Source: Arabidopsis thaliana (Eukaryota > Streptophyta > Magnoliopsida > Brassicales > Brassicaceae). Taken from it: a stretch of DNA of 64,000 bases. Under the pieces are notes generated by a model, which searched no databases, was not told where the DNA came from, and worked only from the letters and a program-made list of their open reading frames with translations. Both the position numbers and the translations under genes were made by a program. The stretch spans positions 3,596,101 to 3,660,100 of the forward strand of contig NC_003074.8 in NCBI RefSeq assembly GCF_000001735.4, in the 5' to 3' direction. This document shows positions 32,701 through 55,171 of this stretch, one piece after another (the stretch's first letter is position 1; the number at the start of each line of letters is the position of its first letter).

Positions 32701-34224
32701 TTACCAGTCATCATCGAGACTAGCCCGGTGAAAACACATGACAGTGCAAATGAATATGAAGAATGATGTGAACTCTATGAGCATTGCACCTGTCTCGATC
32801 ATCTGTGCGTGCCTTAAGATGATTGGGATAGCAAGGCTTCCCACGGTCGATGCTCCGGTCAAGAACTTCGCTGCGTCTATCCACCTGCGTTTTATGGACG
32901 AGCCAATTTGGTAATCGATCTTTCGTTTAACTCAAAGAAGCAATAAAGTCTCTAGTAACTAACCCTCCACCGTCCCGACTAATAAGGAATTGGGTTGAGC
33001 CTCCTCCAAAGAACATACAAGGCATAGGCACCACTACATACATGAGTGCTGATAGCATTGGCCACCAGTTACCATATATCGCGCATGCCTGACCATTATG
33101 AACAAATAGTTATCACTATATCTCCCAGATGACTATAACACGTGTTACTCATTGCATGGTATAACCAGGTATACCAAAGGAAATCACAAAATATGGGAAA
33201 CGTATCAGATTTGTAAATCAGATGATCCTTTCTTCTTCTAATCGAAGTGCAAAAAAAAAAAAAAACTATACCTATACAAGGACCTGATATAAGCTGAGGA
33301 GAGAAGATGCTTGAGTTTATAGAAGTTGTTCAGAAAGTCTAAGTCAATTAACAAGTTAGACATTGAGGTCGGCTAAGGACCCCAGCTTACCATATGCTCC
33401 GGTCAAATAGTGTTGTAAGGATAAGAATTCTAAGTGTAATTTTGGTTTTTGGGATCCAGAGATCGCTAGTCAACATACTACAAGAGAGTAAAGCTCAAAA
33501 CTTCAAATATGAAAGAAGGTTTGAATGTAACAAACTTTACTTCACAGAGTATCTCTCCCAGTAAAACGGGCCAAAAGACTCACAACTCTGTTTGCTACAT
33601 CAACAAGGGTACAAAAGGAGACCAGTATACTCAGCTCACAACCTAACAGCAGAACTAGCTAACCATCTCTTGCAGGATTTAAAGCTACTAAGTCATGATC
33701 TTATGATCAAGCTTCAAGGGTTATAAGCAGATAGCTATATTCAGAAACGTACCAGGATCTGTAGGAGGATACTAGATGAAAACATGAAAGCAAGTCCAGC
33801 AAGTCTGTGCAATCAAGAAAAATAAAATCTGTAAGATCACGACACACGAGAATACACTGGCAGATGTAACAACAAGGGTAATTAAAGAGCATCAAGTCTT
33901 AGAACTTACACTGTACCAAGAAAGCAATTTGAGCATTCCAGAAGAAATCAGCATCGGAAAAAATTTAGAAAAGAGCAAACAATGAGTGAGTTTGAACAAT
34001 GCAAAACCCAGAAACCCTAGCTCACAAAATTAAACAATTCACGAAGCACAAAATAACTATAATCTGAGTAAATCAATACCAATCTCTAATACGTATGGAA
34101 TATATGAACATAGAGCAAGGGAGAAAAGTAAAAGGGGAAAATCGACTTGAATCTGATTCGATTCCGTCGGGAAATGATACAGTTGGAAGATAGGTGATTG
34201 ATTACCTTCGATGGTCATCGCCAT
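32701..34224 (-). CDS. VPS55: VPS55-family endosomal membrane protein
   Basis: Exons on the minus strand: 34206-34224, 33910 (one nucleotide, predicted), 33753-33804, 32964-33088 and 32701-32884, giving 126 residues. Four hydrophobic segments and the motifs NWWPMLSALMYV and VPMPCMFF identify the Vps55/LEPROT family. Yeast Vps55 works with Vps68 in transport from late endosome to vacuole. The 19-nt first exon ends in phase 1 but the exon at 33804 needs phase 2, so one nucleotide is missing. A lone T at 33910 between TTGGTACAG and GTAAGT restores the frame (GTA, Val) and gives an N-terminus as long as LEPROT's. If this micro-exon is wrong, translation could start at the Met in the next exon (113 residues). 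Confidence 0.85.
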
Positions 34225-53064: not shown

Positions 53065-55171
53065 TCAACCTCGTCCATCTCCTACCTGCTCCAATGCTTC
53101 CCCAGCAAATGATATATTCTGTTTCACAATTCCAACACGCAATTTTATTATTTTTATTATCATCAAAAACAAATTGTACACCGAATTGTATAGAATAATA
53201 TGAAAAATAAAACTATCTTTAGTATTCACTTTATTTCATTAATTTAAGTATACAAATATATAATTCTAAGCATTTCAAATTATATCTGAACATTACAAAA
53301 CATGGTAATAAATTCAAAACTTATGTCATTGATAAGTTTGTAATGCTTTTAGTCAGTTTTGCTTTCCAGCTTATTAGTCAATAATTTGGTTTCACAAAAA
53401 AAACTGACGGTGCCTAACAAATTAGAATAGTAAAACCAAAATAGAGACTGTTTTCACAGGAAACTATATACTTACGGCTGATATTAATTAATGAACAAAA
53501 GGAGGCTACAGAGACAAAAGAGTAAACAAAACAAATCAAAGTAATCAAATAAAAACCAAATTGGCCATGTGGTTTTACAGTCAAGTGTATAGTATTATTC
53601 TCTCTGATTCCTCCTTTATATAATTTATTAAACATAAAAATCTCTTTCAGGTCTATTTTAAAATTACTAATTTTCATCTGTCTCGTCTCGAGAAACAGCC
53701 ACGACATCTGTTTAATAATTATATCATACGTAAGCAAAAATTTGAATCTGACAAAAATGTAAAAAAAAAAAATATTTACCATGGGATGAGGAGTTGAGTA
53801 ATAGTAAATGTGTTGGTCATTATAGACATCAGGACGCGGTGGTGGCTCGACGGCATCACCATGACATTCGAGGTTCACGCCAAAAAGCCTCACCGTCCTC
53901 GAGCTACCTGCGACCACCGGTGGTATCGACTGAGCATGATCAACGACGGCGCCTACAATTTTTTTCCACCGTCAAGACACGTGCGCATCTTTTAGTTAAA
54001 TTGTTTTTTTAACATAGAATTAAAAGGAAGAAATAAAGGGCACGTTAGTCTAAGTGGATTGGACGGTTCTCCTCACGCGCATGTAACGGATTAGTTACAA
54101 CTTGGAGAAGATTATTTGAAATTGTCGGGTCCAAAATTAAATAATAAGAATGACAAAAATAAAAGACAAAATGTTATTTCATGTTGTTATTTTATATACA
54201 TTACACACGCAACTAAAATAATTGTCATATAGTTTTAGATAACTCATTTGCTTTTTATAAGAAAGATATTCCACCAGCTAACTAAAATGGTTGAGCTTTC
54301 CAAGTGCTTGCCCTAACCTTTAAAAATTCTCATATTTTGTTTATAAAACCAAATAAAGATGAATGTTCTTGTTTACTACCATATAAAGTAGGCAGATAAT
54401 CTAAAATACCATGCATAAAATATTAATCTCTATTACTTTTTTTAAGAGAACATGTAAATATGCAATACAAATTACGAATCATCTATTTTTATGAAAAAGA
54501 CAAATCTTAAAAGAGAACAGAGAGGAGTATAAATCTGACATATAGATAAGAGAGAAAGAAAAAACAAAAGAGGAAATAAAGGGTTTGAATTTACCATAGT
54601 GTGAATACTCTTGGTGAATATTAGGGTAAGTAGTTGACGCGTGTACTTGACGATAAGGTGTAGTCAAGCCGCTCCAATACGCCGTCGTATTAACTAGAGC
54701 TTCTTGAGACACAACGGAGACAGCGGGAGAGGAAGAAGCTTCACCGCGTCTCCGCCAGCCAATGAAGAGTCTATGGAGATCAAAACGGTGACGTTGAAAG
54801 AAAACAACGTCGCCTGCGTCGAGGTGTTTGTCTTTGACGTACCTGCTCCATCCTTTGGTCAACACGTAGCTTTGGCTACTGTTCCAATAAGAGTATCTGA
54901 ATTTCCAACACTTGCCTGACTCATCCTCGAAGCTAAGAAGCATCCCTTTCTCCGTCGTCGCCACGTCATCTCCGCTGCCGCCATTATTATTATTATTATT
55001 GAGAGGGAAGTATTTCTCGGCGTGTTGTTTTGGTATGACTAAGCGGTTTAGCTTTCCGACGTCGCTTGGTGTGAGTGATTTCTCGAACAAAGACTCTCGT
55101 TGTGCTATAGCTACGTCGTTTTGGTGGTGATGATGCAACGAGAGAGTGTTGTGGTAATGGTTGACTGACAT
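53065..55171 (-). CDS. NGAL2: B3-domain repressor NGAL2 (SOD7)
   Basis: Exons on the minus strand 54595-55171, 53780-53952 and 53065-53118 encode 267 residues. The B3 DNA-binding domain spans about 28-140 ([53 protein letters not shown]) and is of the RAV/NGATHA type. An RLFGV repression motif lies at VRLFGVNL. The third exon is tiny (17 codons plus stop) and lies 660 bp from the second; I place it because it gives a family-like tail ([11 protein letters not shown]). The protein represses KLU and limits seed and organ size. A six-Asn run is encoded by an (ATT)6 microsatellite at 54983-55000. Confidence 0.94.

Follow-up and report, generated by a model that had tools for sequence, protein, structure and literature searches.

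How does the start-codon exon of the Arabidopsis thaliana gene AT3G11530 (VPS55-1), which is 19 nt long and ends one base into a codon, connect in frame to the rest of its coding sequence? The gene lies on the minus strand of the window, by which we mean the whole 64,000-nucleotide stretch of DNA that was analysed (3,596,101-3,660,100 of contig C3, in a genome of seven contigs). A mutation reported as intronic in AT3G11530 (VPS55) is placed at 3-3,629,794 in the available part of PMC5825158, which is window position 33694 and falls within the intron between the exon end at 33753 and the exon start at 33088; the gene is therefore AT3G11530. A profile search of the genome's contigs placed Pfam Vps55 (PF04133) matches at three sites, two in AT3G11530 and one on contig C1.

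All the features described here are on the minus strand. The first coding exon (ATGGCGATGACCATCGAAG, 34206-34224) encodes MAMTIE and the first base of codon 7, so that it ends in phase 1, and its donor, GTAATC at 34205, has a U1 duplex energy of -6.6. The next clear coding exon (33753-33804, 52 nt, LAGLAFMFSSSILLQIL) has a homologous stretch in a chromosome 1 paralog and carries an internal Met; TTGATTGCACAG precedes its first bases, ACTTGC at 33804, and GTACGT follows its last base at 33753. This exon takes two carried bases, and with donor 34205 and acceptor 33804 fixed a direct join breaks the frame. Between the two exons, at 33919-33904, stands the core TTGGTACAG/T/GTAAGT (slashes mark splice points), an acceptor AG, one base and a donor GT, and inclusion of the T at 33910 restores the frame. 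The flanking introns, both present in our GT-AG listing, are 295 nt (33911-34205, GT...AG) and 105 nt long (33805-33909, GTAAGT...GCACAG), and the T becomes the middle base of GTA, the codon for Val7. Continued through a 125-nt exon (32964-33088), joined by the splice that yields an open frame, and a last coding exon of 184 nt that includes the stop codon TAA (32701-32884), the coding exons sum to 381 nt and translate into 126 aa, from MAMTIEVLAGLAFMFSSS to a C-terminal DDDW. The T at 33910 is almost certainly a one-nucleotide coding exon of AT3G11530. An earlier note on this DNA had proposed as much, and the exons, core, acceptor GCACAG and donors were found where it had put them, as were the phase 1 end of the 19-nt exon, the need of the next exon for two bases and the open frame through GTA (Val). 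Its statement that no GT-AG pairing of the two exons keeps the frame is correct as regards the donor at 34205 but needs qualification, since from the same ATG a weak donor at 34180 joins 33804 in frame.

Which other splices would keep the frame? Starting from the ATG, we enumerated GT-AG splices whose introns are no shorter than 60 nt and, with the outer sites fixed, an internal exon of less than 120 nt. With the donor of exon 1 and the acceptor of exon 2 kept, eight internal small exons preserve the frame; among them the donor of the T at 33910 pairs best with U1 (-6.4 kcal/mol; the runner-up has -4.4), an energy that serves only as a rough guide. Two of the eight solutions are a single nucleotide long, and a GTRAGT donor occurs only at T 33910, the other, a G at 34016, being followed by GTTTCT (-3.5 kcal/mol). 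Only one GT-AG join of two exons that begins with the ATG stays in frame, and it uses the weak donor ACT/GTATCA at 34180, at which U1 pairing is -1.3 kcal/mol. A further possible donor, ACA/GTGTAAGT at 33911, overlaps the microexon splice sites (33919-33904) and has the lowest U1 duplex energy, -8.5, among the 27 GT sites scored from the ATG to 33804, a value that perhaps comes from shifted or bulged U1 pairing. A repeat search of the gene found no inverted pairs and two repeat families of two 20-nt copies each (75-80% identity).

The one-nucleotide VPS55 exon is already known: it was found and confirmed by others in 2022, who demonstrated the transcript; what we show here is the sequence and frame logic. 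Yu et al. (2022, PMC8831610; this and the other papers are cited from the parts of their text that were available) state that AT3G11530.1x "contains a 1-nt microexon", on the basis of RNA-seq and RT-PCR sequencing. They report that the exon is conserved in diverse land plants with a GTRAGT donor, that its absence from the annotation costs the Arabidopsis protein 13 residues, that APC11 and VPS55 (cluster 2) form two conserved clusters of 1-nt microexons, that a sister clade, VPS55-2, is without the microexon, and that Selaginella, a hornwort and a liverwort have transcripts both with and without it. We take the T at 33910 to be their exon because it agrees with theirs in gene, in the loss of 13 residues and in a donor of the form GTRAGT, an equation that was made by these features and not by a printed coordinate; in gene, size, N-terminal position, residue loss and donor we saw no difference in the available text. 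The words "19-nt" and "first exon" are absent from the main text of that paper. A 1-bp Vps55 microexon has also been predicted in the alga Zygnema (PMC11096116, 2024; preprint PMC9915684) with a program of the same group as PMC8831610. Beyond these three, the matches listed from the open-licence literature included no further account of the VPS55 exon. The central proposal of the earlier note, an exon of one nucleotide at 33910, is therefore borne out by the RT-PCR sequencing of AT3G11530.1x, and of the two 1-nt solutions it is the only one with a GTRAGT donor; its figure of 13 residues lost by starting at the internal Met agrees both with our translations (126 versus 113 aa) and with the published count. 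The note had cited APC11 as a reported case, and rightly so (PMC4674806, PMC8831610), but it did not list VPS55, the second published cluster, as another.

What does the protein say about the choice of frame? The 126-aa form scores 110.4 bits with Pfam Vps55, for which the curated cut-off is 24.6, its residues 9-120 aligning to profile positions 2-115 of 120, and the 113-aa form that starts at the internal Met matches with 104.9 bits (profile 8-115), so that the gain is small, 5.5 bits. All four forms tested match the family, the paralog with 117.9 bits and a 134-aa form made through the weak donor with 110.1 bits. We tried the Pfam score as a means of deciding between the splice forms and rejected it, because 110.4 versus 110.1 bits does not separate the microexon form from the weak-donor form. 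LAGLAFMFSSS and the stretch LAGLAFMFSSSILLQILACA align ungapped to the first helix of the paralog, and because they do so this frame is very likely the real one. This alignment fits the weak-donor form equally, and transcript data alone separate the two. A 19-residue Kyte-Doolittle scan gave three hydrophobic segments with the 13 residues and two without them, the first one being lost. With the T included, the N-terminus would be equal in length to that of human LEPROT within a residue, which fits the comparison made in the earlier note. A search of solved structures gave no match at E values up to 1. The available text of PMC8831610 counts four segments with the 13 residues and three without; relative to that count our scan misses one helix, but in both it is the first that disappears.

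If the upstream ATG were unused, the 5' exon would be untranslated and the protein would start at the internal Met with 113 aa, as it is annotated without the microexon. That such a form is still recognizable as Vps55, and that annotations lacking the exon do give an Arabidopsis protein 13 residues shorter (PMC8831610, available text), lend this reading some credit. Nevertheless we regard it as very unlikely, as it would forfeit the first hydrophobic stretch and the first profile positions, and the published 1-nt exon restores exactly the frame that runs from the upstream ATG.

Could the gene instead dispense with a microexon altogether, exon 1 extending to the weak donor at 34180 and joining 33804 to give a protein of 134 aa that begins MAMTIEGNQSPIFQLLAGLAF? 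We consider this still less probable, even though it is the only two-exon solution that stays open from the ATG and it satisfies the Pfam profile about as well as the microexon form does. Its donor has a far better rival 25 nt upstream, at 34205 (-1.3 versus -6.6). However, the first donor of APC11, which is real according to the 2015 paper (PMC4674806, available text), reaches only -1.5 in the same scoring, near the value at 34180, and for this reason U1 pairing alone cannot settle the matter against donor 34180. What does speak against it as the main form is the transcript sequenced by RT-PCR, which contains the 1-nt microexon (PMC8831610, available text); the weak-donor form could be a rare isoform. 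That a different small exon (31, 13, 7, 40, 28 or 19 nt, or the 1-nt G at 34016) restores the frame is conceivable on paper for all seven alternatives and has a negligible chance of being true, since every one of them has a weaker donor (-4.4 or worse versus -6.4 kcal/mol) and the only one of the published size has GTTTCT where the published exon has a GTRAGT donor (PMC8831610, available text).

If the T at 33910 is the exon, as we believe, then the spliceosome would remove the 295-nt and 105-nt introns around it and assemble the Val7 codon from three exons, G/T/A, the single base thereby bringing the first membrane helix of a VPS55/LEPROT-type endosomal protein into frame with the exon that carries the start codon. 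Since there is scarcely room on a single base for two splice complexes at the same time, successive removal of the two introns is the most likely course. If the T were left out while exon 1 kept its normal donor, the frame from the upstream ATG would be lost, and translation would have to begin at the internal Met, giving 113 aa with a damaged first helix. We infer that use of the exon is constitutive in Arabidopsis. An exon of this kind stands at the physical lower limit of size and is missed by gene finders and read mappers, which leaves the annotated protein without its N-terminus and first helix; frame logic applied to the raw sequence can recover such exons. A more speculative idea, which we think improbable, is that the one-base exon acts as a stepping stone by which one long intron is taken out in two (recursive-like) steps, that the VPS55 N-terminus changes from one membrane topology to another according to whether the exon is used or a flanking intron retained, and that short first exons favour this layout, hence the 19 nt in both APC11 and VPS55-1.

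How does this exon compare with the others of its size? The APC11 exon (At3g05870; Guo and Liu 2015, PMC4674806) is likewise a single base near the start codon on which the frame depends, as far as the available text describes it. In the genome it reads AAACAG/A/GTAGGT and, counted by hand, is base 333 of its span, in agreement with the A333 of that paper; the first coding exon that precedes it is 19 nt long. The donors of the two microexons pair about equally with U1 (-6.1 in APC11 versus -6.4 in VPS55), whereas the base is A in APC11 and T in VPS55-1, the donors read GTAGGT and GTAAGT, respectively, and the proteins are unrelated. A 19-nt first coding exon ending in phase 1 precedes both of the published Arabidopsis 1-nt exons (362-380 of locus L006 in APC11; window 34206-34224 in VPS55-1), a likeness that we provisionally take as coincidence. 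Outside plants, the CYP621A exon of Fusarium (PMC12940212, available text) is also one nucleotide long and needed for the coding sequence, but it belongs to a fungal P450 gene that is no relative of VPS55.

In the chromosome 1 paralog, a search of locus L004, 1001-1500, gave no AG-N-GT core whose donor reads GTRAG, and the exon with its ATG (L004 1399-1497) reads straight into the homologous helix. This gene is presumably AT1G32410, a name that is absent from the main text of PMC8831610. Its structure fits the VPS55-2 clade as published, whereas AT3G11530, having the core, falls outside that clade.

Would such a core be expected by chance? Rarely within the 401-nt span, where YAG-N-GTRAGT flanked by 60 nt or more at either end arose in 34 of 20,000 shuffles that preserved dinucleotides; AG-N-GTRAGT did so in 79 and the bare AG-N-GT in 9,706 of 20,000 shuffles of the same span. 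Across the 64-kb window, YAGNGTRAGT was found twice against 1.43 expected by shuffling, and this window-wide count, being at the chance rate, was rejected as evidence. The telling part is the position and frame of the core, not the rarity of the motif over the window. The second core in the window, TAG/G/GTAAGT at 54625 on the plus strand, lies opposite a minus-strand open frame (54479-55171) that we take, from its look, to encode a B3-domain protein, and on that account it is probably a chance occurrence.
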